Source of the DNA: a virus
Direction: 5' to 3' (one strand)
Length of the DNA: 54,206 nucleotides
Virus record (IMG/VR): IMGVR_UViG_3300030104_006890
Span: 1-54,206 of that record
The notes under the pieces: generated by a model
The model's input: the letters and a program-made list of their open reading frames with translations, nothing else
What the model was told of the DNA's origin: nothing
Database searches by the model: none
Translations under genes and position numbers: made by a program
In this document: positions 3,999 to 53,414 of the stretch, in pieces
How the letters are laid out: each line of letters opens with the position of its first letter
How positions within the stretch are numbered: position 1 is the first letter of the stretch

Positions 3999-5759
3999 TT
4001 ACTCTTTTATTATATTATCTTCACTTAACATAGATGGTTTCTTTTTAGGAAACTTATCCTTAAGTTGATCTAATATACCCTCACGAGCAACTACTGTACT
4101 GGCTTTTGATGTGGCAAGAGGTGATTTACCTTTAAATTCTCTTTTTCCATATGACCTATCAACATCTTTTAGATTTTCGTGACCATATTTATCTTTCATT
4201 GTTTCTTTGTCTTTGAAAAGATCTTTTTCACTACCACCCCATTCACCCTTTCTACTTACTTCAAAATCATCTTCTTCTTCACCTTCTTCTTCAGGTGGTT
4301 CTGTAGCAGGATCTTTACCCTCTGCTTCAATTTGCTCTAGTCTGAACTTTTGTTTTGTGTCTTCTACAATACCTTCATAGATGTTAATCTTTTGTTCATC
4401 ACTCAAATCAAAGATATTGTCATATATCCACTTACGACTAAATAATTTACTGTCAATTGCAGTTTGTGCAATATCTAATTGTTGATTCATTAACTCTAAT
4501 TTTTCTTGTTCGTGAATCATGGACGGATTTTGTAGTTCTAATGTGAAATCAATTAAATCTGAGTCATTAAATCCTTGTGAGTAAAGATGGACAATACCAA
4601 TTTTAGTCAATTCACTAACAATAATCTTTTGTAACCTTTCGATTGTTCTAGCAAAACGAACATCCTCAGCAGCAAGTGTAGCTTTACCACCACTCAGACC
4701 TTCTTCATATCCTAAAAAAGCTTTTGGAATACGAAGACTTGCCATTAACTTATTTCGTAGATATTCAATATCTTCTATTTGGTCATTATTTGAAAGACCT
4801 GGTAAAGTGTCAATCTCAGTTCCACTATCCCCACCACGAACAGGTAAGAAGTAATCTTCTGTAACTGACTCTACATTATATTTCAAATTATACTCGCCTG
4901 TGTTTTGGTCTATGACAGGTGTCTTTTTCATCTTGTTGATAATTCGTTGCATAAATTGCTCAACTTCTCTTGGTGGGATATTCCCAACATCGACCTTAAA
5001 AACTCTTTTTTCGGGCGCCCTCATAATTCGATGTATCAACATGGCATCTTCCATCAAAGTCAATTGTTTGTATATTTTTCTTCCGTTTTCTAACATTGAG
5101 CGCCCGTATGGTAAAAAGTTTGTATCTGATAAAACACGAAAGTGAGCCATCTCATAATTTTCTTTTATTTCTTTTTTCTCCATATTAATTTCAAATTGAA
5201 TCAATTGTGGATTTTGAGGATCATGGTCTTCTAATCGTGTAATATCATAGGCACTAATTGGTTTGACATTTACAACACCATACTTATCAACTATATCTAG
5301 CTGAAGATAAAAATCACCATACTTGGTCATATTACGAATCCAACTCCATAAATTATATTCAATGTTTATTACATCATAATATAAGTTGTGTAAAATCTTT
5401 TGGACTTTTGTGTTTTCACTTTTTACTTTTAAAATTTCTCCCTCAATATTTGTAACCGTACTTTCGTCTGAATATATGTCGAGAGCAGATGCAATAATCG
5501 GGTCTTGGTCCATCAACTCGTAATCTTTGAATAGGTCATGTTTCCTAATCTCGTATGCTGCTCGTCTATTTTGTGCAACCGAATAAGGATTCGAGTATGT
5601 GTTTTGTATTAACCTCTGATATCGGTCAATAAAGTTTGATGTTAAACTTGTCTGTGTAAAGTCTAAATCCTTCACCACCAAACGATTATCATCTGTCTTT
5701 CTAATGATTACATTAGATTGAAATAATCTTCCAAGTCTTGTAAATAAATTATCTGCCAT
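3999..5759 (-). CDS. 20: Portal vertex protein, T4 gp20 family
   Basis: The 586-residue length fits the T4-type portal (about 520-560), which forms the dodecameric ring through which terminase packs DNA. Recognisable stretches include SNFIDRYQRLIQNTYSNPYS near the N-terminus, DQDPIIASALDIYSDEST near residue 85, PYGRSMLENGRKIYKQL near residue 215, and the LRIPKAFLGYEEGLSGGKATL segment near residue 345, all typical of gp20. The tail from about residue 490 is acidic, then basic and probably disordered; near the C-terminus MLSEDNIIKE offers an L-x-E site that a gp21-type protease could trim (inference). ATG at 5759; only three bases separate it from the terminase stop, so the two are co-transcribed. 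Confidence 0.92.
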   Translation of the reverse strand: MADNLFTRLGRLFQSNVIIRKTDDNRLVVKDLDFTQTSLTSNFIDRYQRLIQNTYSNPYSVAQNRRAAYEIRKHDLFKDYELMDQDPIIASALDIYSDESTVTNIEGEILKVKSENTKVQKILHNLYYDVINIEYNLWSWIRNMTKYGDFYLQLDIVDKYGVVNVKPISAYDITRLEDHDPQNPQLIQFEINMEKKEIKENYEMAHFRVLSDTNFLPYGRSMLENGRKIYKQLTLMEDAMLIHRIMRAPEKRVFKVDVGNIPPREVEQFMQRIINKMKKTPVIDQNTGEYNLKYNVESVTEDYFLPVRGGDSGTEIDTLPGLSNNDQIEDIEYLRNKLMASLRIPKAFLGYEEGLSGGKATLAAEDVRFARTIERLQKIIVSELTKIGIVHLYSQGFNDSDLIDFTLELQNPSMIHEQEKLELMNQQLDIAQTAIDSKLFSRKWIYDNIFDLSDEQKINIYEGIVEDTKQKFRLEQIEAEGKDPATEPPEEEGEEEDDFEVSRKGEWGGSEKDLFKDKETMKDKYGHENLKDVDRSYGKREFKGKSPLATSKASTVVAREGILDQLKDKFPKKKPSMLSEDNIIKE

Positions 5760-5762
5760 GTT

Positions 5763-7343
5763 TTACCCCAATAGCCAACTTAAATCTTCTTCTTCACCGT
5801 TCTTAAGTTTTACCTTATACGGATTGTTTTTAGGAACAGATGGTGTCATCACAGTTGTGTTACCATTAAGGTTTCCGATTGCACCAACTAAACTACTCTG
5901 AAACTCATTTCTTTCTGATTGAATACGAATAGCCGTATCCCTTATCCACAGAAGAATAGAATATGACATAACAAGGTCATCGTTATATCCCTCAAGAGCT
6001 TCGGTTTTACTATTCTTATATATAAATACAAAGAGTTCATCAATTAATCGTGTAGATTTTATTTTAACCATTTTTTCACGAGTATATTCTTCCATTTTAG
6101 CGATAATTAATGGTTTTGATTTCATTGTTGTAGTAAAACCTGGTATCTTGTTCCTATCTATACTTCTATATTTGTTTGTGTGTTGAATGTCCTCATCTAC
6201 AATTAGATGATTCTTTTCTTGATAAAAAAGATTTTCATATCCCCTATCAATGATAGTCTGTAAAGTTGCCCACCCTATGTTGTTGTTTTCTACAACAAGT
6301 AGAGCATCGTTATATTTAGTTGCCAGTTCTATTAGAAAATTTCCAAACTCGGTTGTCCCTAACTGACCTTTATATTCAGCAACTTGTTCCATCTCTTCTA
6401 TATCAAAAACTTGTGCAGCTGAGTAATCCGTTCCATCTCCACGAGCTACATCAGCACATATTAAATAATTTTTATCATAATTTGGATAATCCCATATCCA
6501 AAGGTTTCTGTCAAACCCACTCTTTTCATTTGGTTCACAACATAAGTTTTCTTTGTACCATTCTAATATAGCAGGATCGACAACAGAACGACCAGAACTT
6601 AAGAAGTCGGCATCACACTCTTGAGCTGCCTTACTTGGTCCTAATATTCTATCTTGTTCTCTTCTCCACTCCTCATCTCTTTCAGGATGGTCTGTCCAAT
6701 GAAGTTTGACAGTATTAAATTTATTTAAACCATCTGTCGCATCCATCCAAGTTTTATGAAACCAATTACCAACACCATTAGGTGTAGATATAGCAATACA
6801 TTTACCACCAGTAGCAAGTGTCTGTTGAGCAGCAGTCCATATCGTATCAATTCTGTCAATAAAAGCAGCCTCATCTAATATTAGTAATGATAGAGCTTCT
6901 GAACGACCAGCTGATTCGTTAGAAGCAATTGCCTTTATCTGTGAACCATTCTTAAATACTAATGATAACTTATTGTTTTCAACGATAGCAGTTTTTAACC
7001 ATTGTGGTAATCCATCATACATCACACGAACTTTTGTTACTAAATTCTTTGCCGTGTCTTTTGCAGTAGCAATACATAAAATATTTTTATCTGCATTAAA
7101 CAACATCATCCAAAGTGAATACGCAGCAGTAAGTGTGGATATACCCAATTGACGAGATTTCAGAATAACATTATAGTCATTCTCAGCATACTCATCTAAT
7201 ACATCATACTGATAAGGATAAAGTTTAAATTTTATCTTACCCCTCTGAGGATGTTGTATCACACAAAACTCATTGATAAAGTATGAAGGATCTTTAGCAC
7301 ACTTTAGATAGTTTTGTTTTATTGCTTGTTTTAAATTACTCAT
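5763..7343 (-). CDS. 17: Terminase large subunit, T4 gp17 family
   Basis: This is the motor and nuclease that pumps and cuts the DNA concatemer. The ATPase domain has KSRQLGIST (residues 62-70), a deviant Walker A in which Ile replaces the usual Lys of T4's SRQLGKT; Lys62 at the loop start may take over, as in lambda-type terminases. Walker B LLILDEA is at 153-159 with Asp157 and Glu158. The C-terminal RNase H-like nuclease shows ICADVARGDGTD (first acidic residue Asp298), VVENNNIG (Glu352) and a late GYNDDLVMS. At 526 residues it is somewhat shorter than T4 gp17. The ATG at 7343 overlaps the stop of the upstream zinc-ribbon gene. Portal follows directly; tail sheath and tube genes, which lie between 17 and 20 in T4, are absent. 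Confidence 0.95.
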   Translation of the reverse strand: MSNLKQAIKQNYLKCAKDPSYFINEFCVIQHPQRGKIKFKLYPYQYDVLDEYAENDYNVILKSRQLGISTLTAAYSLWMMLFNADKNILCIATAKDTAKNLVTKVRVMYDGLPQWLKTAIVENNKLSLVFKNGSQIKAIASNESAGRSEALSLLILDEAAFIDRIDTIWTAAQQTLATGGKCIAISTPNGVGNWFHKTWMDATDGLNKFNTVKLHWTDHPERDEEWRREQDRILGPSKAAQECDADFLSSGRSVVDPAILEWYKENLCCEPNEKSGFDRNLWIWDYPNYDKNYLICADVARGDGTDYSAAQVFDIEEMEQVAEYKGQLGTTEFGNFLIELATKYNDALLVVENNNIGWATLQTIIDRGYENLFYQEKNHLIVDEDIQHTNKYRSIDRNKIPGFTTTMKSKPLIIAKMEEYTREKMVKIKSTRLIDELFVFIYKNSKTEALEGYNDDLVMSYSILLWIRDTAIRIQSERNEFQSSLVGAIGNLNGNTTVMTPSVPKNNPYKVKLKNGEEEDLSWLLG

Positions 7344-7801
7344 TTTCTATGTTCATGGTTTGCAATAGCATTTGCTACAGTTTTATCAAATGCACCTTTA
7401 CTCTCATTTTGTAAATTCATTTCTTGTTCATATTCAGCAAGCACAGATTCCCATCTTTTAGTTTCCATATCTTTAACCCAATCTTCCCACTTTCCTTCTC
7501 TTTTTAATTTCATCTCAAAGTCAATCTGACAGTATTTACACCTACCCATCCTATCATATGTCTGTTGGTCGATTGTTTTTAGTATAAGCTTTTCACAATC
7601 ATTACATTTATCAAATCCTCTTGGTGGTATTTTTGTAATTTGTTTTCTTTCACCATCTTCTATTTTCCAACTACGACCACGAGCATCTGTCCACTCTTCT
7701 CCTTCTTTTCTCTGTTGAACTGTCTTACCCTCATATCCAGTTTGTATGGGACGATTATAAATCCCCTTTACCATCTTTTGAATTTTTTCTATGTTACTCA
7801 T
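7340..7801 (-). CDS. Zinc-ribbon protein upstream of terminase, possible small terminase or packaging factor
   Basis: The 153-residue protein has a four-cysteine site, CNDC (66-69) and CKYC (88-91), with 18 residues between the pairs, as in a zinc ribbon. The N-terminus includes EGEEWTDARGRSWKIEDG and the C-terminal half is a charged helix (EGKWEDWVKDMETKRWE), so it may oligomerise. It overlaps the terminase start by four bases, a sign of translational coupling. T4 has the small terminase gene 16 in this place, but gp16 has no such zinc site. The small-terminase assignment is therefore positional; a DNA-binding or recombination-type zinc-finger accessory is equally possible. Confidence 0.65.
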   Translation of the reverse strand: MSNIEKIQKMVKGIYNRPIQTGYEGKTVQQRKEGEEWTDARGRSWKIEDGERKQITKIPPRGFDKCNDCEKLILKTIDQQTYDRMGRCKYCQIDFEMKLKREGKWEDWVKDMETKRWESVLAEYEQEMNLQNESKGAFDKTVANAIANHEHRK

Positions 7802-7811
7802 AACCTTATCC

Positions 7812-10337
7812 TTAAAAAAACATTAAACCTGTTATTTGATTTATAGGAGCAAACGCACCCGTAAACTTGTATGTGTTTCCATTATACTTGAATACGATTC
7901 CCTCACTTGGAACGATAGCATCAAACCCACCTATAGCATTTAATCTGTCCAACTGAACTTTTAATCTGTTTAGTTTTTTTAAATTACCACCAGCTCTTAC
8001 ATCCGAGATTGCTTTCTTGAGTTTTTTTCTCATGTTCTGAACTGACTTTGCTGGATTTACAGCCATCCACCCATCCATGTTTTTCATTATTTCAGCACCG
8101 ACCTCAAAGAACAACTCCTCAAATGGTTTCATGTTGTCCTTGACCATCCTGTTTTTATCAACCTTATCGGTGGTTAATGCCCAATCTAAAAACTTTGGAT
8201 TATCTTTCATATCTTTTTTCATCATGGGTATGGTGTATGATTTATCAAAGAATGCCCATCGTTTTGTTAACTTGACCAACATCTCATTTGTGATTTTAAA
8301 TTTAAATTGTTTAGCAGCGTTAAAAATAAACTCTTGCCAATACATCTGATGGTATAAACCGAAAGTATCATTGTCTTTTAACGAATAAGTATTTTGTAAT
8401 TTTTGTAACCTACCGATGTATTTCTTTTTCATCTTACCAAAGTCTTGATGTTTAGGAACTGTTACAAAGTTTGGTTTAGATATCTTGTAGTGTTTTTGAA
8501 CATGTTGATTGACCTGTTTTATCATACCTTGTAGCATTCTAGCACTATCTTTTGCTTGTCCTATTACCCTTCCACTATCATCATATTCCATCGCTCCATG
8601 AAAAACTAATTCTGTAATATCATAGTTTACCACATTCTCACTAGCAGGCCACATTACTTCTAAACTCATGAACTTACTACCATTACCAAATATCTTGTCT
8701 TGTTGTTTTTTAGATAGTGCACCGATAGCTTTTGTTAAATCTCTCATGGCATAAACAAACGCGTCTCTAATAGCACCACGACCTTTAAACTTTCTCTCTA
8801 CAGCTTTTATATCTAAGGCAGTCTCACCTTTGTTTTTTAAATGACCTTTGTTACGAGCAGCAATCAACTTACCATTTTTATAACTAACCATTAGGTTTTG
8901 ACCATCTGTTTTTTCGGTAACATTGTCTTCTCTGTTTAACTGACCACTCAATCCCAATGTTATGATTTTCTTCAAATCACCGAATGTTAAATCCTTGTCA
9001 TCAAAAGGATGACTCATGTGTCCGTATGCTCCTCCCATTAATAATAACTCCTTTCCATTTCTTGGTAAATCACTTGTAAGTGATAACACCTCTTTTACAA
9101 TTTCTAATTTATCATGTTGTTCCTCACCAGTTCTAAGTTCAGTATCTTCTGGTTGTTCATCATCTATTACCTTTAATGTTTCAGGTGAATCATCAATCGT
9201 TATTTTTCTTGCTTTCTTCATAGGATCTATGTAATCATATTCTTGATTAAATAGTATTTTATCAACATGGTCTAACCATTTATTCCACAACTCACTACCA
9301 ACAACATCTATGTCACTACCTGCAGCTGGTTCTCTAACACCAGCAGGTCCGTATGATACTGAGCCAATAGGACCATTTGGATATGCAGTATCCTTATAGA
9401 ATGATGTGTCTTGACTGTTATAAGCATCGGTATCAGTTATGAGATTTGCTAACTCCCAACCCAATCTACCAGCCTCTTTTTCAGCTCTATTCATATATGA
9501 TTTCAAACTTGAAAACATACCAGGACCATCGTCTGTATCTACACTTGCAATCTCACTCCCCTCAAATAGACCACGATAAACCTCGTATAATTTTTTAAAT
9601 TTATTCGTCATCATATTATACACACCTTTATCGAAATATCCAAATGTTTTTTTGAAAAATTTTATTCTTTCTTTATCATCTATGTTTGGATTACCCAACA
9701 TATCCCTTGTCTTTGTTCCACTTATATTTCCAAATTGGGGAGCAGTAACAAAGTATCCGTGTTCTTCAAACCCTCTTATATCACCTTTACTTTTTTTGTA
9801 ATCTTGATAATAAGTCTTACCACCACCCTTTTTAGTTCCAGCTTTCAAACGACCAGCATCTTTTTGACCGAAAGCATAAACTACTGCCGTGGTTTCAGGA
9901 TTAAACTTTTTAAGTAAATTAGTTGCCACATAAGGTGTCTTTTCTTCAATAATACGATTCTTAGGAATACCAACCTTTACCATGTGACGAACTTTTTCCT
10001 TGAAGTTCATTGGATGTCGTGGTGGTTTCTTAATATTACTTGTGGTTATATAGGCTTCATCAACTTGAGATGCCAACCATTTATATGTGGCAAGATGACC
10101 TGAGTGAAATGGTTGAAATCTACCACCAAATACACCGATAGTTTTTTTGATTTTGGTCGGTTGTTCATTTACTTTCTTATAACCACTACCATAAGGAACT
10201 GAGGTGTGTCCTTTCTTTTTCATTTTTTTTATTTTAGAATGTCTTGAACCACCTTTGATAGTTCCATCACTGGCAACAATGCCCATCTCGTCAATAACGG
10301 GTTTGGTTATTTCTTCTACTAGTTTTTTCAAACTCAT
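7812..10337 (-). CDS. Multidomain NMN-adenylyltransferase-like / ligase-like nucleotidyltransferase, 841 aa
   Basis: Two nucleotidyl-transfer modules are visible. Residues 66-215 form a Rossmann-type cytidylyltransferase/NMNAT domain: GGRFQPFHSGHL (71-82) with the HxGH site H78-H81, and ISGTKTR (205-211) matching the family's ISxTxxR. Such domains transfer AMP to nicotinamide mononucleotide or CMP to a phosphate. Residues about 430-841 look like a covalent ligase domain: KTDG (476-479) as the K-x-D-G adenylation motif, EGIVFK (812-817) as motif IV, and Lys823 in a motif V position. Between them, GSVSYG...SDIDVV (325-346) resembles a pol-beta-type G-S...D-x-D site, with a spacing longer than usual. 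The N-terminal 65 residues are basic. The start overlaps the Nudix stop by four bases. Whether it makes NAD, repairs RNA or both cannot be told. Confidence 0.75.
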   Translation of the reverse strand: MSLKKLVEEITKPVIDEMGIVASDGTIKGGSRHSKIKKMKKKGHTSVPYGSGYKKVNEQPTKIKKTIGVFGGRFQPFHSGHLATYKWLASQVDEAYITTSNIKKPPRHPMNFKEKVRHMVKVGIPKNRIIEEKTPYVATNLLKKFNPETTAVVYAFGQKDAGRLKAGTKKGGGKTYYQDYKKSKGDIRGFEEHGYFVTAPQFGNISGTKTRDMLGNPNIDDKERIKFFKKTFGYFDKGVYNMMTNKFKKLYEVYRGLFEGSEIASVDTDDGPGMFSSLKSYMNRAEKEAGRLGWELANLITDTDAYNSQDTSFYKDTAYPNGPIGSVSYGPAGVREPAAGSDIDVVGSELWNKWLDHVDKILFNQEYDYIDPMKKARKITIDDSPETLKVIDDEQPEDTELRTGEEQHDKLEIVKEVLSLTSDLPRNGKELLLMGGAYGHMSHPFDDKDLTFGDLKKIITLGLSGQLNREDNVTEKTDGQNLMVSYKNGKLIAARNKGHLKNKGETALDIKAVERKFKGRGAIRDAFVYAMRDLTKAIGALSKKQQDKIFGNGSKFMSLEVMWPASENVVNYDITELVFHGAMEYDDSGRVIGQAKDSARMLQGMIKQVNQHVQKHYKISKPNFVTVPKHQDFGKMKKKYIGRLQKLQNTYSLKDNDTFGLYHQMYWQEFIFNAAKQFKFKITNEMLVKLTKRWAFFDKSYTIPMMKKDMKDNPKFLDWALTTDKVDKNRMVKDNMKPFEELFFEVGAEIMKNMDGWMAVNPAKSVQNMRKKLKKAISDVRAGGNLKKLNRLKVQLDRLNAIGGFDAIVPSEGIVFKYNGNTYKFTGAFAPINQITGLMFF

Positions 10338-10774
10338 AAGTTTAATTCCAATACTTGTCTCATTCTATCGTCTATTGGCCGTGGCATACTATCTTTATCA
10401 TAATAACCCCAATCAGAATGCTCAAAGTCTAACGTTGGTTCAGGTTTACCATCCATTTCTGCCTTGTATAACTTTATCATTCGATTATGTACGCCGTCTT
10501 TTATTGTACCTAAATATACTAAATTTTTAGGGTTAATGTCAAGCATTGTTTCTTCTTTTAATTCACGAGCAGCACCTTCACGAAAAGTTTCACCTTTCTC
10601 AATACCACCCATTGGAACTGCCCAAAAGTTTGGATATTTACCGGCAATCTCAGAACGTTTTACTAAAAGAACTTGTCCTTCAGAAACGATAGCTACACCA
10701 CCTACCTTTCGTAATGGTTTTGTTAAATGATAGTCTGTTTCGTTAATCAAATCTTTTAATTTTGGTATAGACAT
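10334..10774 (-). CDS. Nudix hydrolase with capsid-targeting-like N-terminus
   Basis: A 146-residue Nudix protein. The box GX5EX7REUXEEXGU lies at residues 56-78 (G56, E62, R70-E71, E74-E75); the usual Gly near its end is Met77. Family members hydrolyse nucleoside diphosphates linked to another group, such as ADP-ribose, NADH, nucleotide sugars or RNA caps. The substrate is not predictable here, but the adjoining NMNAT-like gene (four-base overlap) suggests NAD-linked metabolism, as in known NMNAT-Nudix pairings in phages and cyanobacteria. The N-terminus MSIPKLKDLINE matches the K-L-x-x-L-I-x-E motif shared by five genes at 48344-51517. GGAG stands 8 bases before the ATG, and the TATATTTATA motif is 17 bases before it. 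Confidence 0.85.
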   Translation of the reverse strand: MSIPKLKDLINETDYHLTKPLRKVGGVAIVSEGQVLLVKRSEIAGKYPNFWAVPMGGIEKGETFREGAARELKEETMLDINPKNLVYLGTIKDGVHNRMIKLYKAEMDGKPEPTLDFEHSDWGYYDKDSMPRPIDDRMRQVLELNL

Positions 10775-10791
10775 AGATATTCTCCTACATC

Positions 10792-10801
10792 TATAAATAT
10801 A
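10792..10801 (-). promoter_or_regulatory. TATATTTATA promoter-like motif before the Nudix gene
   Basis: The exact 10-mer TATATTTATA (read in the direction of the gene) lies in the 42-base gap between the endolysin stop and the Nudix start, ending 17 bases before the ATG. It would drive the Nudix, NMNAT/ligase, zinc-ribbon, terminase and portal genes. It is one of five exact copies in gaps of this window. Promoter function is inferred. Confidence 0.45.
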
Positions 10802-10816
10802 TAAGTTTCAAAAGAA

Positions 10817-11293
10817 CTAAACTTCTAATGCTCTTCTAAACCAACCAAAGTAAAACTTCTCCAAGTCTGGTTTACGAGTTACTAAATCAGCATAATACTT
10901 GACACGATAAGCACGAACTCTGTCTAACTCAACACCTTCCATAGCACCTATTGTCTTAGGTCCTAATCCACCATCTACTTTTAGGTTTTTACCTTTAGCA
11001 TTGGCTGCTTTTTGTAGAATTTTTACAGCTCTACCTTTACCTTGATTTACACACATATCAAAATAAATATGTCTGAGTTCTTCAGGTAAACTTTCAACTT
11101 TATTACCATCCCAATAGTGTTCTTTATAGATTTCTTTTGCCCCATCTTTTGTGAGGTTTTTTATATCCACATCAGGATGACTTCTTTTGGCAATACCAAA
11201 ATTAGTTTCTCCACCTGGATCTTTCGGATCGTTTACATATCCACCCTCGTGGTGTAATACTATTTCTATTATTTCATCGAATTTAACTAACAT
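10817..11293 (-). CDS. GH108-type lysozyme-like endolysin
   Basis: The frame opens at a GTG at 11320, but the ATG at 11293 is preferred: AGAAGGA lies about 7 bases upstream and the ATG follows the stop of the preceding gene by two bases. The 158-residue product has the GH108 signature near its N-terminus, HHEGGYVNDP followed by DPGGETNFGI, where the Glu of EGGY is the catalytic residue of the family. Further on are GLGPKT, typical of the peptidoglycan-binding C-terminal part, and a closing YFGWFRRA. It should cut host peptidoglycan at lysis; no signal peptide or holin is seen nearby, so release would need a holin elsewhere. A virion-associated lysozyme is the alternative. Confidence 0.85.
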   Translation of the reverse strand: MLVKFDEIIEIVLHHEGGYVNDPKDPGGETNFGIAKRSHPDVDIKNLTKDGAKEIYKEHYWDGNKVESLPEELRHIYFDMCVNQGKGRAVKILQKAANAKGKNLKVDGGLGPKTIGAMEGVELDRVRAYRVKYYADLVTRKPDLEKFYFGWFRRALEV

Positions 11294-11295
11294 AA

Positions 11296-11544
11296 CTACA
11301 TTCCTTCTGTGTTTGACCACTCACTTCCTGTTAATACATTTGATATTTGTGCGTGAGTGTATTCACTTGATTTTGAAGATAAACCAGCAACACTACTTGG
11401 TTGACTTCCTTCGTATTTTACAAAAGTTTTACTTCCACTAATGTTTAATCTTAATGTATTGACACTTGTTTCCATCACTTGTGAGAAGTCAATGCTTCCT
11501 GTTTCACTAGTGTTAAAAATTACATATTTTCTATTTTCATACAT
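11296..11544 (-). CDS. Small conserved structural-type protein, 82 aa
   Basis: Function unknown. The protein begins MYENRKYVIFNTSETGSIDF and continues with SVNTLRLNISGSKTFVKYEG and a C-terminal HAQISNVLTGSEW. The mix of beta strands with a short C-terminal helix, and the place between lectin-fold proteins and the endolysin, suggest a small virion or fibre-associated protein. I recall similar short proteins in marine T4-like phages but cannot name a family. ATG at 11544, two bases after the stop of the last LamG gene. Confidence 0.6.
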   Translation of the reverse strand: MYENRKYVIFNTSETGSIDFSQVMETSVNTLRLNISGSKTFVKYEGSQPSSVAGLSSKSSEYTHAQISNVLTGSEWSNTEGM

Positions 11545-11546
11545 GA

Positions 11547-12275
11547 TTATACTCCAAACCTTGTTCGTTGAGCGTTAAAATTTTGTTTTATTTCTTCTAT
11601 CGTTAAAGCCCTATCGTATAAATGACAACATGCAAATACACCTTGTAGAAAATGTTGACCATTAGTATCAGAAGGATAATTATTATACATTATGGTTGTA
11701 TTGGATGCTGTGCTTAAATCAATATCACTTTGTGTTTGGTCTGTAGCAGTTCCTTCTAAAACATTATTTATGAATAATTTTACAGTTGCTCCTTGTTTTG
11801 TAGCCACAGTATTATACCAATTTCCTACGGCAAAATTACTACTTGATTGAAGTCTATCATGACCATCATCTTGATTGTAAGAACAATAAAATTTTGTGCC
11901 TGAATTTCCCCATCCTATTCCAAATCTTGAAAAACCATCTGTTTTATGAATGACAACCATTCTTGCTTCACCACTATGACTTCCATCAATATATCCCCAC
12001 CAAGAAATAGTTGCGTCTTGGGTTGATTGACATAAAAATTGTGTGTCTTCACCTGCAAGCATATAATCATTAGTGCCATCAAAACTTAAACCTTTTCTAT
12101 CGTTTTCTCCATAAGCAGTTCCAATAGAACCAACATTACCTATAGTTGCGTCCGCTTTATTAGTAGCTAAATCAGACACAGCTGTTGATAGATGTTGATA
12201 ACTATTTTGGTCAGCCATATCAATAGCATAAACCAATCCATCTTGTATTAAATCTGCTCCTGCTGAAACACCCAT
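11547..12275 (-). CDS. LamG / concanavalin A-like lectin-fold protein 4
   Basis: A 242-residue single-domain protein of the laminin-G/concanavalin A-like fold, which binds sugars or proteins and is common in phage adhesins. The N-terminus is IQDGLVYAIDMADQNSYQ; the middle has SFDGTNDYMLAG, then RFGIGWGN, VATKQGATVKLFINN and CHLYDRALTIEEIKQNFNAQ. The closing motif (RALT-x-E-E-I-x-Q-N-F-N-A-Q-R-T-R-F-G) recurs in all four tandem genes at 11547-14395. There is no signal peptide, so it is likely a virion protein, perhaps a short receptor-binding tip on the neighbouring fibres (inference). Confidence 0.75.
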   Translation of the reverse strand: MGVSAGADLIQDGLVYAIDMADQNSYQHLSTAVSDLATNKADATIGNVGSIGTAYGENDRKGLSFDGTNDYMLAGEDTQFLCQSTQDATISWWGYIDGSHSGEARMVVIHKTDGFSRFGIGWGNSGTKFYCSYNQDDGHDRLQSSSNFAVGNWYNTVATKQGATVKLFINNVLEGTATDQTQSDIDLSTASNTTIMYNNYPSDTNGQHFLQGVFACCHLYDRALTIEEIKQNFNAQRTRFGV

Positions 12276-12277
12276 AT

Positions 12278-12979
12278 CTATATTCCAAACCTTGTTCGTT
12301 GAGCTTCAAAATTTTGTTTTATTTCTTGTGTCGTTAATGCTCTATCCCAAATACAAAAACTATATAAATCACCATCAAATTGTTGACTAGCGTATAGTGT
12401 ACCACTTGAATATAATTGACCAATGTGTACATGGTCAATTGTTTGAGCATTATTAAACCAAAACGCATTATCTGCTGTATAATCCAAATTACCATTTAAA
12501 TATAGTTTTCCATCACTATTACCACAAATATTATAAATTCTACCAGTAGATAATACAGTACCTACATTTACATGTTCCCTTGTAGCGGCACCATATGAAC
12601 CCCAAAACCAATCACCATCTGCCATAAGACTAAGATGATATTTATTAGAATTCCAATCGGATGATTTTTGCCCCATAGTTAATAAATATCTATTTCCTGA
12701 AGCGTTATCATATTGAAACCAAAGACTAAATGTACCTGTACTTTGAGCTTGTAGTGTTGGAGCCAAATTATTCCACTCACAACGAGATGGATTTGTACCA
12801 GTAAAATCAAATGAAGTTAATTTTCCAGCAGAAGTAAAATTTACATTACTCATTGAACTTGTATGATTAGTATTTACTAAACTTTGCCAATTAGCACCAC
12901 TACCAGGATAACTATTTTTATCTAAAGCATCTACTGTAAATATTAAACCATCAGTCGTGAAATTTGTAGAACCTATCAT
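12278..12979 (-). CDS. LamG / concanavalin A-like lectin-fold protein 3
   Basis: A 233-residue paralogue of its two neighbours. It opens with TTDGLIFTVDALDKNSYPG, contains SFDFTGTNPSRCEW, FSLWFQYDN and GDLYSFCIWDRALTTQEIKQ, and ends RFGI. The sugar-contact loops between conserved strands differ strongly from the other copies, as expected if the copies recognise different ligands. ATG at 12979, overlapping the stop of the preceding copy by a few bases; the next copy begins two bases after its stop. Confidence 0.75.
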   Translation of the reverse strand: MIGSTNFTTDGLIFTVDALDKNSYPGSGANWQSLVNTNHTSSMSNVNFTSAGKLTSFDFTGTNPSRCEWNNLAPTLQAQSTGTFSLWFQYDNASGNRYLLTMGQKSSDWNSNKYHLSLMADGDWFWGSYGAATREHVNVGTVLSTGRIYNICGNSDGKLYLNGNLDYTADNAFWFNNAQTIDHVHIGQLYSSGTLYASQQFDGDLYSFCIWDRALTTQEIKQNFEAQRTRFGI

Positions 12980-13665
12980 ATTCCAAACCTTGTTCGTTGA
13001 GCGTTAAAGTTTTGATTGATTTCTGCCACCGATAAAGCCCTATTGTATATACGAAGTGGTCCTAATAGTCCACCATAACGATATGCATTCGTAGCGTAAG
13101 CACCAATCAGCGTATCAGTTACACTACCTACTCCCATAGTATTGCCACTACTTGCTGAGTGTTGGCCATCAGCTGCGCCATTTATAAAAAAAGTAATAGT
13201 TGTTCCACTTCTATGTAGAACAGCACAATTCCAATCTCCTTCTGAACCTAAAGATGTACTGTTTTTAACACCATTTACCACATTATAAGAAGCAGAACCA
13301 TTATTACTTTGATAAACTTCTAATTTACTATCTCTAGCATAAACCTGACAACCATTTCCTAATGAAAAGACACCCTCATAATCAGTACCAGCATTATTTG
13401 TAAACCAAAATTCCAAAGAATATGAGCTAGTTGTTAGTTCTGTTGGTATGTAATTTGCATAAACAAGATAATCATCACTACCATCAAAGTTTATATGTTT
13501 AGATGGAGAAGTTCCTATTGTTGGACCATTGGTCAATGTACCACTTTTACTACGAATCAAATCTGTAACGGTAGTTCCACTACCAGGATAACTATTATTA
13601 TCGGCAACATCAACATAAAAATGTAAACCATCAGTTACTATTGGTCCTCCAAAACTATAACCCAT
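12976..13665 (-). CDS. LamG / concanavalin A-like lectin-fold protein 2
   Basis: The open frame extends to 13764, but that part overlaps the preceding gene by about 100 bases and has no lectin homology. The ATG at 13665, one base after the upstream stop, gives MGYSFGGPIVTDGLHFYVDV, an N-terminus aligned with the other copies, so I place the start there (229 aa). The domain has NFDGSDDYLVY, SLEFWFTNN, VLHRSGTTITFFING and LRIYNRALSVAEINQNF, ending RFGI. Same fold and presumed role as the flanking copies. Confidence 0.75.
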   Translation of the reverse strand: MGYSFGGPIVTDGLHFYVDVADNNSYPGSGTTVTDLIRSKSGTLTNGPTIGTSPSKHINFDGSDDYLVYANYIPTELTTSSYSLEFWFTNNAGTDYEGVFSLGNGCQVYARDSKLEVYQSNNGSASYNVVNGVKNSTSLGSEGDWNCAVLHRSGTTITFFINGAADGQHSASSGNTMGVGSVTDTLIGAYATNAYRYGGLLGPLRIYNRALSVAEINQNFNAQRTRFGI

Positions 13666-13666
13666 A

Positions 13667-14395
13667 TCAAACCCCAAACCTTTGTTTTTGTGCGTTATAG
13701 TTTTGTAATACTTCACCTGCTGATAGTGCTCTATTATATACCAGTGCAGGTCCAAATTGCCCATTCACATATCGTACTTCTGCGCCAGATGCATCTGGAC
13801 CACTTCCTATTATAAAGCTAACATCATTATTATCAATATCACCAGTATGAGCATGTGGTGTGCAATTTAACACGCCATTAAGATAAATCCTATCATAACT
13901 TCCATCATAAGTAGCAGTAAGACAATACCATACACCTGATTGCCATGTCCCATTATCCCAGGCAACATAATTATTAGTACCACCAGTCCAGTTTTGGTAA
14001 TAAATTAAACCATCGCCATTATAACCCATAATTTCATAACTTCTATTACTTGTACCAACAGCATCCCTACCTATAAGTTGACAACTTGGTGTGCCATTTG
14101 TATCAAAATTTACCCAAATAGATAAAGTAATCGTTGAAGTAATATCTAAAGAAGTATCATCCCCATGATTTGAGCGATCATCTGTACCATCAAAGTCAAA
14201 AACCCCACCATTAGAGGTACTAAAAGTTGGGCTACCAGATAATGTTCCATCATTTTCAAAACCACTTAAATCAAACCAAGTCGTTCCAGTTCTCGGATAA
14301 CTTTTTTTATAAGCTGGATCCCAATAACCAACTAAGCCAGTTGTTTGAATATTATTATTTACTTGTCCACCCAATCCAGCTGAGATTCCTGGCAT
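13667..14395 (-). CDS. LamG / concanavalin A-like lectin-fold protein 1
   Basis: A GTG at 14422 could extend the frame, but the ATG at 14395 overlaps the upstream stop as TAATG and has GGGAG about 9 bases before it, so I use it (242 aa). The domain shows TTGLVGYWDPAYKKSYPR, WFDLSGFENDGTLSGSP, FDFDGTDDRSNHG, ITLSIWVNFDTNG, LTATYDGSYDRIYLNG and ALVYNRALSAGEVLQNYNAQ. It is the most diverged copy and the one translationally coupled to the giant 2161-aa fibre gene, which suggests that it acts with that fibre. Confidence 0.78.
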   Translation of the reverse strand: MPGISAGLGGQVNNNIQTTGLVGYWDPAYKKSYPRTGTTWFDLSGFENDGTLSGSPTFSTSNGGVFDFDGTDDRSNHGDDTSLDITSTITLSIWVNFDTNGTPSCQLIGRDAVGTSNRSYEIMGYNGDGLIYYQNWTGGTNNYVAWDNGTWQSGVWYCLTATYDGSYDRIYLNGVLNCTPHAHTGDIDNNDVSFIIGSGPDASGAEVRYVNGQFGPALVYNRALSAGEVLQNYNAQKQRFGV

Positions 14396-17300
14396 TATGT
14401 TAAATCTCCCATGAGGTCCCACTCATTATCATCTACTTTCTTTAAGGTAGCAGATGAAAATTGACCAGCAAGATTCATGTTATTATTTTTAACATTTACG
14501 GTAACTCCACTTGCACTTTCAAATAAAAAGTTTCCTGCAGAAGATGTTTGAAAAAAGTCCCATTCAGTCCCAATTGGAGCATATAAGGAGCCAGTGGAAT
14601 CATTGATTATTCCTGAGCCTGTAAAATTAACATTAGCAGCTATCGAACAAGTTATGTTACCACCAACTCTAAAGTAAAATCCACTATTATTTGTAGTACA
14701 TGTAAAATCAGAATTTTGTTTTACAATAGGTCTGTAACCTCTAAGATTACCATCAACATAACCAAATACATTAATGTCTTGTTGGACATCCATTGAACCA
14801 AATAAATTAACTTGTCCTGACATATCAAGTGTATTTGCAGAAGCAGTAAGTTGTGAATTTCTAAAATTTGCACCTGTTTTACCATTTCCAAAAGTAAATT
14901 CATGTATTTTTTCACCACCTGTACCTACGACATACATTTTACTGTTATCAGGTTTTATAAAAAACCCACGAGGAGCACTTTCAACTGCATTTACCGAGAG
15001 TGTCTGTATCTTTCTAGCAGTGCTAATATCCCAATTTTTTGATAAATCGTATTGGACTATTTCATCATCACCTGAAGCTAGAATAAACATTTGACTTCCA
15101 TCACCTGTAAATTTTAAATCTGTACAAGTATCATGTTCTGGAGGCAATCGTAATTCATTTTCTTGTTTTAAAGAATTAATATTAAAAAGAGAGCCTGTTA
15201 CCGCATATTGTTGAATGGTATCTCTAGAGTATCCCATGAGATAAAATTTTGTTCCATCTGGTTTAACAACAATTCCACTCGGTTGGGATTCATCATCACC
15301 ACCAGCAATTTTATTTGAATCCATTACTCTTTCATGAGTGGCAGTAGTAATATCAAAAGGAGTTGATAATCTGAATGAATTGATTCCATCATCATCAGCA
15401 CCAACGATAAACAAATAAGAACCATCCATAGACAAGTTCATCGCATATGCACCACCCTCAAATGAAGATATGCTAAATTCACCTTTTTTTGTTGTATCTA
15501 AACTGCTAACATCCCAAGGAATCGATAAGTCATATTGATAAATCTTATCAACACTAGTATCATCCATTAATATTACTCTTCTTCCATCAGGCCTGAAGTG
15601 TATGCTGTAAATATCACCAATAGTTTCTGGATCTGCAGAAGATTGTTTAAATTCTGCGGTCGATAAATCAATTGGACTTGATATACTTGAATCAGTAAAT
15701 TTAAAACTACTAGATACAGCAATTAATCCATGTGTAAATTCTGGTTCTGTTTTAAATGTTGGTGTTTGTCTTAAAATTACATTTCCATATACATCTAAAT
15801 CTCCATAAACATCAGTAGAAGAAGCAATAGTAAATTTGTTACGAGCTAAAGAGCTGGTTGTATTAGCGTCAGGTAATTTAAAAACTTGAACTTCATCAGC
15901 AATTGAACCACCAGTATAAAATTTCTTTTGGTCATATGAAAGATATATCATGTATGGAGTTGTTTCACCCGAATCAGTTCCAACATTGAAAGTTGATTTA
16001 ACCCTAGCAGTGCTAATATCCCAATTTTTTGATAAATCGTATTGGACTATTTCATCCTTTTGGTAACCAATAACAAACATTTGACTTCCATCACTTGTAA
16101 ATTGTATACCTGATGGACTAGTTTCTTCTTGTAAAACTGGTAATTCATGTTCTTGTTTTAAAGTATGAATATCAAAAACAGAGCCTGTTACAGCATATTG
16201 CTGAATAGTATCTTCATCATATCCAACAACAAAAACTTTTGTTCCATCTGGTTTCCAAACAATTCCTGAAGGAGTGCTTTCATCTGAACCACCATCAATG
16301 AGATTGGAATCCATTGATTTTACAAAAGTCGGTTCATCTTTAGGTAACCTCCAAGGTATGTCAACACTATATTCTGATATTCCATCCCTGGCACTACCAA
16401 CCAACCAAAATCTTAATCCATCAGGATGCCACCACATTCCTAATGGACTGCTTTCGTTACTTGAAAGATTTGGCGTCTTCGATTCATATTCTTGTGTTCT
16501 CAAATCAAACGGAGTTTTTAAAGAAAATTGATAAATTGTTCTACCACTACTACCATCTAATGTCATTAAAGTTTTACCATCTGGTGAAATAGCCATGTCC
16601 CAAAGATAACTTCCATGTGAGACTCCACCATCAAATCCATAACCAGATGCATAACCACCATCTTTTGAACCATACTCAAATAATAATTTTGTAATATCAA
16701 TTGGATTTGATATACTAGAAGCTTTAATGCTACCAGTTTCACTAATTAATCCATGTTCAAAATTTGGTTCTGTATCAATTATTGGTGATTGTCTTAAAGT
16801 TAATTTTCCATATACATCTACATTACCGTATATGTCAGTATTAGTTGAGATGTTAAGACGGTCTAGTGAAGAACTATGATTATATAGTGACTCATCAAAT
16901 TCAAAAACTTGAACTTCATCAGCAACTGAACCACCAGTATAAAGTCTGTTTTGGTCATACGAAAGATATATCATGTATGGATTTGTTTCTCCTGAATCAG
17001 TTCCAATATTAATACTTTCTTTAAATCTGGCAGTGCTAATATCCCAATTTTTTGATAATTTATATCTTACCAATTCATCCTTTTGGTAACCAATAACAAA
17101 CATTTGACTTCCATCACTTGTAAATTGTATACCTGTTGGAGTAGTCTCTTCTTGTAAAACTGGTATTTCATGTTCTTGTTTTAAAGCGTGGATATTAAAA
17201 TTATTATTAGAGCCTGTTACCGCATATTGTTGAATGGTATCTTTCTCGTATCCAACAACAAAAACTTTTGTTCCATCTGGTTTCCAAACAATTCCTGAAG

Positions 17301-47851: not shown

Positions 47852-48347
47852 ATAAGGCACACACTAGAGCATCGTAAGCATCCATATTGCGTTTATCCCA
47901 TAATCCTGTCTTAGTTAATTTAACATATTCTTTTAAATTATACAAGCAATTTATTTCTTTTTTTACAAAATCTTTTGCTGATACACCCTTTACTCTGGCT
48001 TTTCCAAAAAGGTGTTTTCTTGCTGTCATGGGATTTACACCATCTATTATTTCACCATAGGCAAATTCTAAACAGTAAGTCAATACAGCATTAAACTTTG
48101 CTAACTTTATTATTGTTTGTTGTGATGTTCTACCACGCATAAAACCAGAAAGACTGTCCTCTATGTTGATTTTATCAATATGTTCAAACGGATCTATATC
48201 TGTAATAATATCCATTGTTAATTGAACTTTATCTCTGATAGACTTTTCTTTTTCAATGGGTATAAAACCCATGTCTATAACCTCTGAGCCGTCAACAAAT
48301 GCATATCCTACTGTAGTTGTTGAGGCATCCAAACCTAATTTTTTCAC
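47844..48347 (-). CDS. RuvC-like Holliday-junction resolvase / RNase H-fold nuclease
   Basis: A 167-residue protein with the RuvC layout: LGLDASTTTVGYAFV at the N-terminus supplies the first Asp, INIEDSLSGF the Glu near residue 65, and a C-terminal NMDAYDALVCAL the last acidic pair. Family members cut four-way junctions; in a T4-like phage it would replace endonuclease VII in resolving branched DNA before packaging. The start is GTG (48347), overlapping the previous gene's stop as GTGA; no ATG fits. Co-expression with primase and Mre11-Rad50 supports a replication and recombination role. Confidence 0.8.
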   Translation of the reverse strand: MKKLGLDASTTTVGYAFVDGSEVIDMGFIPIEKEKSIRDKVQLTMDIITDIDPFEHIDKINIEDSLSGFMRGRTSQQTIIKLAKFNAVLTYCLEFAYGEIIDGVNPMTARKHLFGKARVKGVSAKDFVKKEINCLYNLKEYVKLTKTGLWDKRNMDAYDALVCALYE

Positions 48348-48907
48348 TTATAAATATTTTTCCTATTAATCTTCAAATAGTCTTTTGCCATTTTACGGCC
48401 AAATCTCTCTGCTTTCTTTTCAAAGTAATTATCATCATGAGCATCCCCACCTTTCGCAACTGCCTTATTCATCTCCATCTCATATCTATCTTTATACTTT
48501 TTCTTTCCGAACTTTTGAGCATCTTTAGCATGGTCTATTTCATGAAAAACTGTAACTAAAAAATCTTTGAAATCTGATGTTGGTTCTATGTAGATAGTAT
48601 CTGAATCTACATTATAATCTGCTTTAGTTCCTTTTCTTTTAGCAAACACTACCTTTGATTTTAGTCCAGCTTTCTTGACTATTTGTGTAGCCGTATCATA
48701 AAAATCTACTCTTTCTTTTATTTCGTTTTTTGGTGATATTCTAAAATTCACAACCTTTTTTCCATTTATTGTTGGCATACCATGTTCATCTTTTCCTATG
48801 GATTTAACAACAACTTTTTTGTTTTTGAATCTACCAGCTAATATAACATCGCCAACCTTAACATCCAAGACAATTTTTTCAGTAATTAAATTTAGTAACT
48901 TTATCAT
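48344..48907 (-). CDS. HEXXH metallopeptidase-like protein with capsid-targeting-like N-terminus, 187 aa
   Basis: MIKLLNLITE at residues 1-10 is the shared N-terminal motif. Residues 17-56 are a small beta domain (VGDVILAGRF...GMPTINGKKVVNFRI) that I recall as a free-standing module in marine phages. The C-terminal half is a zinc-peptidase core: FHEIDHAKD gives HEIDH at 122-126, and Glu163 in FEKKAERFG fits the third ligand of gluzincins (E-x-x-A). The remaining sequence is basic. The substrate is unknown; if the N-terminus is removed by the prohead protease, the enzyme would be carried in the capsid and act early in infection (inference). ATG at 48907 overlaps the upstream stop as ATGA. Confidence 0.75.
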   Translation of the reverse strand: MIKLLNLITEKIVLDVKVGDVILAGRFKNKKVVVKSIGKDEHGMPTINGKKVVNFRISPKNEIKERVDFYDTATQIVKKAGLKSKVVFAKRKGTKADYNVDSDTIYIEPTSDFKDFLVTVFHEIDHAKDAQKFGKKKYKDRYEMEMNKAVAKGGDAHDDNYFEKKAERFGRKMAKDYLKINRKNIYK

Positions 48908-49353
48908 TTTCTTGTATTTGCAATTACGAATACACCAGTAAAAGTTGCTATGTAACTTATACTATATACAAAATCTCCTTTGGTCAATTCAAAAATTACT
49001 GGCAATTTTTCTTTTATTTTATACCCTCTAAACTTTTTCAAATCTTTTTTAAAATCATCTAATGAATACTTGTAAGATTTTGAACCTGGATTTACCCCCT
49101 CATCAAATTGATAATCAATTTCCATACCAGTTATCTTTTCTCTTTTAATTGGTTTATCAAATCCGGCTGGCTCAGATACCTGAACATTTAAAGTTTGGGT
49201 TTTTTTCTTCAATTTACCATATCCAAATTCTTTAGACTTCTTTTTGAATACCCTATCAAAGTCCTTTAAAAATGGTTTAGAAGCACCATCTTTAGATAAT
49301 CTCAATACTCGTTCATCTACTGTCTCTGTTATTAAGTCTCTTAACTTAATCAT
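48904..49353 (-). CDS. Unknown protein with capsid-targeting-like N-terminus, 149 aa
   Basis: The open frame reaches 49404, but the ATG at 49353 is chosen because AAGGAA lies 7 bases upstream and because it yields MIKLRDLITE, the N-terminus shared with neighbours. The extra upstream residues overlap the preceding small gene. The body is basic and alpha/beta, with DGASKPFLKDFDRVFKKKSK, EYQ-type strands around residue 80 and a hydrophobic end (SISYIATFTGVFVIANTRK). I cannot assign a family. Size, charge and N-terminus fit an internal head protein in the T4 sense; this is inference. Confidence 0.7.
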   Translation of the reverse strand: MIKLRDLITETVDERVLRLSKDGASKPFLKDFDRVFKKKSKEFGYGKLKKKTQTLNVQVSEPAGFDKPIKREKITGMEIDYQFDEGVNPGSKSYKYSLDDFKKDLKKFRGYKIKEKLPVIFELTKGDFVYSISYIATFTGVFVIANTRK

Positions 49354-49489
49354 TTGATAATTCCTTACTGGCATAATCAGAAAACAAGTCAGGTATAAAT
49401 GCATGTATCAATAAAGCTAATGATAATTTCATAGCTCTACACCAATGTTTTAAATACCCCACTTGTTGTTCTTTCAGATGTTTTATCAT
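49346..49489 (-). CDS. Small DUF6356-like protein, 47 aa
   Basis: A short frame starts with ATG at 49489 (overlapping the preceding stop as ATGA) and ends with TAA at 49346, overlapping the next gene's start. The product contains HLKEQQVGYLKHWCRAMK, then LSLALLIHAFIPDLF and a polar tail. The pattern H-L-x-E...Y-x-x-H...A...hydrophobic-H-A-F-x-P-x-x-F resembles DUF6356 proteins, small membrane-associated proteins of unknown role found in phages and marine bacteria. The hydrophobic stretch could sit in or on the membrane. The family call is from memory of its pattern and is moderate. Confidence 0.55.
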   Translation of the reverse strand: MIKHLKEQQVGYLKHWCRAMKLSLALLIHAFIPDLFSDYASKELSND

Positions 49490-49806
49490 ACTGCTCGATA
49501 TCGTTTACCTTTAATAATTACTTCTTTGACTTTTTTCTTATCAGCATTCTTTTTTCTTTTTGGACTTTCTTCATCATCTTTAGCTGCTGGATGACCATGA
49601 GCTTCCACCTTCAATGGTTTTAAATGAGATACATCCACATTCTCATAAACTTCATTTCCAAATTTTATGTGAACTCGCTCTACTTTACCATCCTCTGTTA
49701 AAGAGTGCCAAATTACTTTACCAACACCTTTACTTTCATACTTTGGGGACCCCCAAGTTGCGTGGTGAAATCATTGATGTTGAACTGATTTATTATATTT
49801 ATCCAT
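49486..49806 (-). pseudogene. Small basic protein gene with an in-frame TGA at codon 12
   Basis: A ribosome site (GAGGT) and ATG at 49806 begin MDKYNKSVQHQ, then TGA (49771-49773) stops the frame. In the same frame the reading resumes without interruption for 95 codons: HHATWGSPKYESKGVGKVIW, then EDGKVERVHIKFGNEVYENV, DVSHLKPL and a lysine-rich tail ending KGKRYRAV. The stop at 49486 overlaps the ATG of the next gene, as in an intact operon. No ATG lies between the TGA and the conserved part. The downstream part looks coding, with a KOW/SH3-like beta pattern. It may be a recent nonsense mutation, a base-call error, an indel near the G5/C4 run at 49744-49754, or read-through of TGA. Confidence 0.6.
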
Positions 49807-49808
49807 AA

Positions 49809-50312
49809 TTACCTCGTTGCTAATATTCTCTTTTTATATTCATCTCTTGATGGTTCTATTTTACCAGACACCACATCAAGAACAAAATTTATTGTGACAT
49901 CATTTGCCACCAAATCACCACACCTAGCCGTAACAGTTCCCTTCAACCCATCTATAATTATAGAACCCGTTACCTTGGCAAAGTCTTCAAATAATTGTGT
50001 ATCTATAGTGTGTTGTCCATCTTTTGGTTTCCACTCAGGTACAGTATATTGTGAATAACAAAAATCTCTGTGGTCTGCTGGAAATGAATGTGGTATTGAC
50101 TCGTCTATTATGTAGACCTTATCTAAATTTTTTACATAGTATGGATCTTTAAGTGTAACATCATACCAACCATACTCTTTATCACTTTTGTATGTTTCTT
50201 CACCCAACATATCCATAAGTGTTTTAAGATACTTGTCAGCATCCTTATTTTTGAAGACACCAGCCTCTTCGTTTATCCGTTGTTCAGATATTAAATTCAT
50301 TAACTTAATCAT
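49809..50312 (-). CDS. Unknown protein with capsid-targeting-like N-terminus, 167 aa
   Basis: MIKLMNLISE opens the protein. The remainder shows KNKDADKYLKTLMDMLGEE, GWYDVTLKDPYYVKNLDKVY, then PADHRDFCYSQYTVPEW and a final beta-rich part (GSIIIDGLKGTVTARCGDLV). I recognise no family and see no catalytic motif with confidence. It follows the 50316-50774 gene by three bases and precedes the broken gene by two, so it is translated within the same operon. A capsid-packed internal protein is inferred from the N-terminus. Confidence 0.68.
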   Translation of the reverse strand: MIKLMNLISEQRINEEAGVFKNKDADKYLKTLMDMLGEETYKSDKEYGWYDVTLKDPYYVKNLDKVYIIDESIPHSFPADHRDFCYSQYTVPEWKPKDGQHTIDTQLFEDFAKVTGSIIIDGLKGTVTARCGDLVANDVTINFVLDVVSGKIEPSRDEYKKRILATR

Positions 50313-50315
50313 CTT

Positions 50316-52941: not shown

Positions 52942-52952
52942 TGGTATCCCCT

Positions 52953-53384: not shown

Positions 53385-53414
53385 TGTATTCTCCGCTCGA
53401 TTTCGAGTCTGATT

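Follow-up and report, generated by a model that had tools for sequence, protein, structure and literature searches.

RNA repair in phage T4 relies on a kinase (Pnkp) and ATP-dependent RNA ligases (Rnl1; Rnl2) that are encoded as separate genes without an N-terminal tag. This report concerns a gene from a virus of marine bacteria, in the IMG/VR virus record IMGVR_UViG_3300030104_006890 (54,206 nucleotides, the whole stretch being referred to here as the window) that encodes a chain of 841 amino acids in which a short tag and a linker are followed by an NMNAT-type domain, a region designated MID and an RNA-ligase-type domain designated LIG. Based on sequence comparison and structure prediction, it is proposed, with a probability of roughly 60%, that this gene encodes a modular RNA-repair polyprotein of T4-like environmental phages, which would be packaged and matured by a protease. 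An earlier note on the same DNA had treated the chain as a single enzyme; the evidence points instead to a modular polyprotein from which the ligase is probably also made alone.

The window family shares with T4 the combination of a phage-encoded kinase and an ATP-dependent RNA ligase, with motif I falling on Lys35 of Rnl2, and differs in that its modules are fused, are encoded on the late side and include an insert between ligase motifs III and IV. Healing and sealing within one chain are known from Trl1, the fungal and plant tRNA ligase (kinase, phosphodiesterase and ligase), which provides the best fold match of LIG (8rbj); however, no sequence relation to Trl1 is detectable, and the phage modules (CCA-adding, HD, NMNAT) vary between phages. 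The RNA-repair sets of jumbo phages (RlaP, CCA-adding, PNK, Rnl, KptA) represent, in the accessible text of their description, the same functional inventory, but they are mostly separate genes, and that text reports no LIG family, fusion, tag or cut sites (PMC7824862). The polyvalent proteins of phages and plasmids are likewise multi-domain and predicted to be packaged and injected, and another gene of the window gives a match to their MPTase-PolyVal domain, below the cut-off (E=8e-4); in contrast, the available portion of that work reports no RNA-repair modules and describes 2H domains that were never observed together with RNA ligases (PMC5512222), whereas the window family combines end-healing and ligase modules, a T4-type tag and predicted cleavage. 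The internal proteins of T4 are diverse defence proteins with the targeting sequence as their sole common trait (PMC3012670), and together with Alt they carry a propeptide of 10-20 residues ending in [IL]xE before counter-defence cargo (PMC3012670, PMC5694885), while in the window family the cargo is a string of RNA and nicotinamide adenine dinucleotide (NAD) enzymes with repeated internal sites. Finally, Cas11 is produced from inside cas8 by an internal in-frame start that frees part of a longer protein (PMC11899642); the proteins are unrelated, and in the window family the internal start and an [ILV]xE site replace each other over evolutionary time. A literature search returned no report of an NMNAT-ligase fusion or of packaged RNA repair, an earlier description being possible, and the Shine-Dalgarno/ATG pair, the N-terminal tag and the [ILV]xE border sites described below are likewise features not previously reported, all three being absent from the earlier note.

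The LIG domain and its partner modules

LIG, the C-terminal 408 amino acids of the polyprotein, very likely has an RNA-ligase fold, as judged from its AlphaFold2 (AF2) model (Table 1), in which a ligase core is present. Compared against the PDB with Foldseek, the top match of the model was the fungal tRNA ligase 8rbj (probability 0.98), followed by an archaeal RNA ligase, T4 Rnl1, a Palaeococcus RNA ligase and T4 Rnl2, and ranks 1-25 were RNA or DNA ligases without exception. In BFVD the family's own entries, all cytidyltransferase-like or unnamed, were followed by many annotated RNA ligases. The ligase motifs are not attributable to chance, since EKxDG is present in 137/137 distinct homologous LIG domains, with the acceptor lysine in every one, and EG[IVL]xF in 134/137. 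In an alignment of 44 diverse members, with identity down to 34%, the invariant positions are E51, K52, D54, G55, R71, K73, K77, E136, E388, G389, F392, K400, T402 and G403. The KTDG and far C-terminal EGIVFK motifs singled out in the earlier note are real and lie where it placed them. The unusually long insert that it described is real as well: motifs III and IV are separated by about 180-200 residues, most of them helical, and no such arrangement is known for other ligases.

The commonest family match among the members of LIG is Pfam RNA_ligase (PF09414, the Rnl2 family; 10/25), with scores of 16.7-18 bits (best E 0.0064) under a cut-off of 27 bits. When LIG was searched on its own, neither Pfam nor PHROG nor the PDB sequences offered a match of use; a Pfam search with the window protein returned CTP_transf_like alone (residues 69-153). 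In a profile alignment with hhalign, the LIG lysine was placed on Lys35 of T4 Rnl2 (32% over 41 columns). Because LIG lies outside Pfam RNA_ligase by score and has no detectable tie to Rnl1, it is named as a family of its own; sequence and model together suggest a new, previously unannotated family of the RNA-ligase superfamily.

The NMNAT-type domain carries the HxGH and ISxTxxR motifs that had been recognized before, and its CTP_transf_like match (E=1.3e-9) passes the Pfam cut-off; in its model much of the domain has a pLDDT of 58-85, and positions 102-133 of that model are weakly predicted. Structure prediction and homologues both support the combination of an NMNAT-type with a covalent-ligase-type domain, and neither of the outcomes that the earlier note had named as refuting it, a fold lacking a ligase core or homologues lacking the KTDG lysine, was observed. 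A third nucleotidyl-transfer site of the pol-beta type, which had been suspected from a GS...SDIDVV segment, is rejected on conservation: the letters SDIDVV are present at residues 341-346 of the window protein, and homologues with the same MID domain read NLTDYVG, NIQTFVG or NVIELVG in their place. The MID model, which is of low confidence, helical and without a beta sheet, gives this site no support.

Relatives of LIG were found mainly in viral contigs, where pattern matching gave 267 and at least 600 stretches and confirmation left 204 and 595 of these, with few in cellular assemblies and 3 among 50,697 named phage records. A cultured phage that has the gene is Microcystis phage Mel-JY01 (L081). 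The homologues range from 421 amino acids, corresponding to LIG alone (L082/L155), to about 2460, and the added modules recognized by Pfam are a PolyA_pol head (E to 5e-31) with PolyA_pol_RNAbd, HD, and a P-loop kinase of the AAA_33/Zeta type. The module orders in the census include KIN-NMNAT-MID-LIG, CCA-HD-NMNAT-MID-LIG, KOWX-CCA-NMNAT-LIG and KOWX-KIN-CCA-HD-NMNAT-LIG, and in a freshwater clade the order is reversed (LIG-NMNAT). NCBIfam models of CCA tRNA nucleotidyltransferases match the homologues with E=1e-50 to 2e-52, under their equivalog cut-offs; Walker A is present in 34/35 kinase modules and HD[IVL]GK in 7/7 HD modules. These partners, kinase, CCA-adding and HD, point to the healing and sealing of RNA ends. 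The likeliest substrate is probably tRNA, by analogy with T4 Pnkp/Rnl1, Trl1 and the HD domain of bacterial CCA enzymes.

Several further modules were observed around these genes. In L023 a free-standing, tagged HD-domain protein (8523-9305) lies beside a polyprotein without an HD module, HD being fused in relatives. A family of about 300 amino acids with FHVT...ISTFT...WNEI motifs occurs free-standing and tagged after LIG (L017:4325-5242, L005:4499-5407, L015:4905-5762) and fused behind the CCA module (L061, L138, L057); it appears ART-like by eye, and since PDB, Pfam and PHROG searches with it gave no match, no ART assignment is made. The jumbo phages G010 (the L155 record) and LR756508 encode canonical RNA ligases alongside LIG, and G010 also has KptA and NadV.

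N-terminal tag, module borders and internal start

The polyprotein begins with a stretch of the kind, 10-20 residues long and ending in [IL]xE, that is common to proteins with otherwise unrelated modules. Homologues whose next domains are wholly different start alike (types MNKLTEWLVKPFLLDE/G, MSLKKLVEEITKPILQE/G and MDKLTEFLVKPFLTE/G, a slash marking the predicted cut here and below), and M(I/V)KLKDLLxE-type starts are also found on Nudix, HD, kinase and further proteins that have genes of their own. An [IL]xE ending at position 9-20 was present in 58/68 distinct homologues, compared with 111/390 (28%) of other open reading frames (ORFs) and 9% of inner windows (Fisher p ~6e-19, a value that ignores the kinship of the homologues). 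The packaged T4 proteins IpIII (MKTYQEFIAE/A) and Alt (MELITELFDE/D) start with the same 10-residue pattern, and by this likeness the tag is probably a signal that targets the long product to the prohead. Elsewhere in the window (48344-51517), five neighbouring small genes all start with M[IV][KH]Lxx[IL][IL]xE and likely form a cassette of packaged proteins.

Sites of the same form recur at the borders between modules. Of 65 distinct junctions before the NMNAT module, 61 carry an [ILV]xE site (the background within 11 residues being 9.8%), and such a site precedes the inner kinase modules in 11/12 cases and the module that appears ART-like in 3/3; at the NMNAT/MID border the variants GLFE/G, HIFE/N and KLYE/A are seen, with an invariant Glu. 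Among 64 representatives, the LIG border reads [ILV]xE/GG in 39 and M/GG in 24, and neither in one (C; L145, with LLLC). Across these borders x varies and [ILV] and Glu persist, although the upstream sequences are unrelated. The major capsid proteins in the set show QLISE/A, QLINE/F or QLLSE/A where T4 gp23 (FLTE/AEIGG) is cut, and the LIG border of one freshwater polyprotein reads QLISE/GG. A prohead protease of the S77 family is encoded in 12/14 records; in the two jumbo phages the ORFs that contain the S77 match are much longer (576-635 amino acids). Judging from these sequence patterns, the gp21-type protease probably cuts after [ILV]xE at the module borders.

In front of LIG the window reads GGA AAG GAG TTA TTA TTA ATG, which places a Shine-Dalgarno sequence ahead of an in-frame ATG. 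The AAG GAG pair was present in 22/22 clusters with Met and Lys-Glu, versus 2/161 for Lys-Glu elsewhere in the same genes, and relatives with KKELLLE or KKELMLE and no Met use AAA GAA or AAA GAG. Because the Shine-Dalgarno sequence is selectively conserved before the ATG, LIG is probably also translated alone, and an internal start is likely on this codon evidence. On the LIG tree the border switched between the Met and the Glu state no fewer than 7 times, with a parsimony count of 10. Either state would start the free ligase at an identical position, an argument that the free ligase matters. The Met state as a relic of a once separate gene is not favoured, since all Met clusters keep the in-frame fusion together with the conserved Shine-Dalgarno sequence.

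Proposed mechanism and competing explanations

Taken to the level of mechanism, the proposal is that the prohead protease divides a polyprotein packed in the head into RNA-repair (and NAD) enzymes, which are injected for the immediate repair of tRNA cleaved by host defences, an internal ribosome-binding site replacing the cut that frees the ligase in some lineages; the chances of this fuller scheme are judged to be about even. The tag would probably direct the long product into the prohead, where cleavage after [ILV]xE by the gp21-type protease would probably yield ready-made enzymes that enter with the genome. LIG would self-adenylylate at Lys476 and join RNA ends of the 5'-phosphate/3'-OH type. 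Modules that in relatives are fused or separate would ready these ends, the P-loop kinase by phosphorylating 5'-OH, the HD domain by taking off a 2',3'-cyclic or 2'-phosphate and the CCA-adding-type polymerase by restoring the 3' end, and the NMNAT-type module and adjoining Nudix would probably serve the same counter-defence by keeping up a pool of NAD or adenylate. In the lineage of the window, the internal ribosome-binding site and ATG would stand in place of the ligase cut site, the ligase also being translated alone.

A number of observations weigh against the polyprotein reading. The PDB matches of LIG have TM-scores of about 0.2-0.25, low values that are ascribed to the long helical insert, and a best E-value of only 1.8e-3; the hhalign match to T4 Rnl2 is weak (E 0.033), and that to T4 Rnl1 (E 0.32, motif I unaligned) is not meaningful. 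The conserved motif V-like YKFTG has one Lys, and the superfamily motif KxK has two. The NMNAT-type domain reaches no NMNAT equivalog cut-off (TIGR01527, 27 bits vs 181), no CCA-adding module was detected in the 54-kb window, and the homologues are related to each other, so that counts among them are not independent. Finally, there is no [ILV]xE site at the LIG border of the window, nor in the Pro/Glu-rich linker that precedes NMNAT in the freshwater clade.

The missing sites at these two borders and in L145, together with the untagged product that the internal start yields, are what would be expected if the same RNA-repair multi-enzyme acted uncut in the cytoplasm of the infected cell, the tag and border motifs being amphipathic linkers or assembly handles. 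This explanation is considered rather unlikely, though it is the most serious of the alternatives: [ILV] and Glu persist with a varying x across unrelated upstream sequences, the border motif is the presumptive cleavage site of the capsid proteins in the same phages, numerous unrelated genes of the late side begin with this tag, and the window has a gene for a gp21-type protease.

The earlier note had left a choice between the rebuilding of NAD and the sealing or capping of RNA. A counter-defence enzyme that rebuilds NAD through NMNAT and Nudix, with the ligase-like domain for accessory adenylylation, would agree with the NadM-like fold of the NMNAT-type domain, with the adjoining Nudix gene and with the known synthesis of NAD by phages (PMC7824862, PMC9503650). 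RNA sealing is preferred to it because the homologues carry kinase, CCA-adding and HD modules and NadV is rare: a NadV-type phosphoribosyltransferase was found in 1/13 long records, most of which are fragments, that one being G010. Moreover, LIG also occurs without NMNAT (L082, L155), the partner modules are RNA enzymes, and models specific for nicotinamide mononucleotide (NMN) score far under their cut-offs, which makes NAD rebuilding as the main role quite improbable. KptA/Tpt1 was considered as a partner that could explain the NAD link and was set aside, as it exceeds its cut-off in 1/14 records (jumbo record G010), with a sub-threshold match in LR756508 and with many of the records being fragments. 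The NAD link is therefore the least clear part of the RNA-repair system proposed here.

RNA capping or NAD-capping, with LIG as a guanylyltransferase-like or adenylyltransferase-like domain, would suit the KxDG fold common to capping enzymes and the presence of NMNAT and Nudix; it is very improbable given that RNA ligases rank first in the fold matches, that the LIG model shows no OB-fold domain and that fusion to CCA-adding and HD modules fits end repair. A structural or assembly role with catalysis secondary, as for T4 Rnl1, labelled tail fibre attachment catalyst in the T4 record, has the adjacent terminase and portal in its favour and is hardly credible in view of the strict conservation of the catalytic residues and of the RNA-enzyme partners.

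Genomic setting and meaning

The gene, a single open frame as had been stated before, lies in a T4-like late region, with a portal gene at 3999-5759, the large terminase at 5763-7343 and a small ORF at 7340-7801; on its other side are the Nudix gene noted previously, which overlaps the start of the polyprotein gene, and a GH108 endolysin (10817-11320). The coordinates of the features are collected in Table 1. Tagged protein, Nudix and lysozyme genes cluster at 10334-11320, as do e, nudE and ipIII at T4 65834-67490; the gene order is not alike and the resemblance may be a coincidence. Neither the window nor the tested loci yielded a tRNA gene.

Table 1. Coordinates of the polyprotein gene, its parts and associated features in the window (cut marks as in the text)
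Feature	Position	Strand	Basis or remark
Polyprotein gene (tag - linker - NMNAT-type - MID - RNA-ligase-type)	7812-10337	minus	841 aa, single open frame
N-terminal tag, residues 1-17 (MSLKKLVEEITKPVIDE/M)	10287-10337	minus	like T4 capsid-targeting sequence; T4 IpIII and Alt as control
KVNE/Q, residues 55-58, [ILV]xE site directly before NMNAT module	10164-10175	minus	61/65 NMNAT junctions
NMNAT-type (HIGH superfamily) domain, residues 59-259	9561-10163	minus	PF01467 E=1.3e-9; best folds NadM 2qjo, 2r5w
GRFQPFHSGH motif, residues 72-81	10095-10124	minus	invariant in NMNAT-MID alignment (A3)
ISGTKTR motif, residues 205-211	9705-9725	minus	S, G, T, T, R invariant in NMNAT-MID alignment (A3)
GLFE/G, residues 256-260, [IL]xE site at NMNAT/MID border	9558-9572	minus	E259 invariant (A3 column E199)
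MID region, residues 260-433	9039-9560	minus	no pol-beta nucleotidyltransferase by conservation
Shine-Dalgarno AAGGAG, 9 nt before in-frame ATG	9048-9053	minus	codon conservation
Internal start ATG (Met434), predicted free ligase (M)GGAYGHM...	9036-9038	minus	AAG GAG codon conservation
RNA-ligase-type domain LIG, residues 434-841	7815-9038	minus	AF2 pLDDT 89.1, pTM 0.85; Foldseek
Motif I EKTDG (475-479), predicted nucleotidyl-acceptor Lys476	8901-8915	minus	137/137; aligned with T4 Rnl2 Lys35
Motif III-like LEVMW (559-563)	8649-8663	minus	Glu invariant (E136 in 44-sequence LIG alignment)
Motif IV EGIVF (812-816)	7890-7904	minus	EG[IVL]xF in 134/137 distinct homologous domains
Motif V-like YKFTG (823-827)	7857-7871	minus	kept in 136/137 distinct domains
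Nudix hydrolase	10334-10774	minus	PF00293 E=2.7e-19; own tag (MSIPKLKDLINE/T); overlaps polyprotein start
S77-family prohead core protease (T4 gp21 type)	1974-2576	minus	PF03420 E=5.5e-32; candidate for the processing enzyme
Tagged protein (MIKLLNLITE/)	48344-48907	minus	KOW-like segment; weak MPTase-PolyVal match, E=8e-4, below cut-off
Tagged ORF, MIKLRDLITE/	48904-49404	minus	tag starts at inner Met of longest frame; no known domain
Tagged ORF, MIKLMNLISE/	49809-50312	minus	no known domain
Tagged ORF, MIKLKDLLRE/	50316-50774	minus	no known domain
Free-standing P-loop kinase, tag MVHLKQILLE/G	50771-51517	minus	PF13671/PF06414; same module as homologues' fused KIN domain

Two other regions of the window deserve mention. 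Successive similar ORFs at 11547-14422 have a common C-terminal ending, QNFNAQRTRFG[VI] or alike, and one that was tested matches Laminin_G_3; these are likely tail or adhesin proteins. Past the kinase gene (51556-54053) there are five ORFs of bacterial look, three of them with the type IV pilin N-methylation motif (PF07963). This stretch is either a set of pilin genes carried by the phage, flanking host DNA or the end of a chimeric contig.

Hundreds of environmental viral contigs carry this overlooked RNA ligase family, filed so far as 'cytidylyltransferase-like' or hypothetical, and within its members the helical domain of LIG is placed unusually. A module border that has a protease-like site in some lineages and an internal ribosome-binding site in others constitutes an unusual gene architecture, and the [ILV]xE/tag signature offers a way to list further injected counter-defence proteins of marine phages. 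If the proposal is true, the sequence evidence suggests that an enzyme set packed in the head, cut and delivered would repair RNA broken by host defences, and that phages may deliver a multi-enzyme RNA-repair kit along with their genome.

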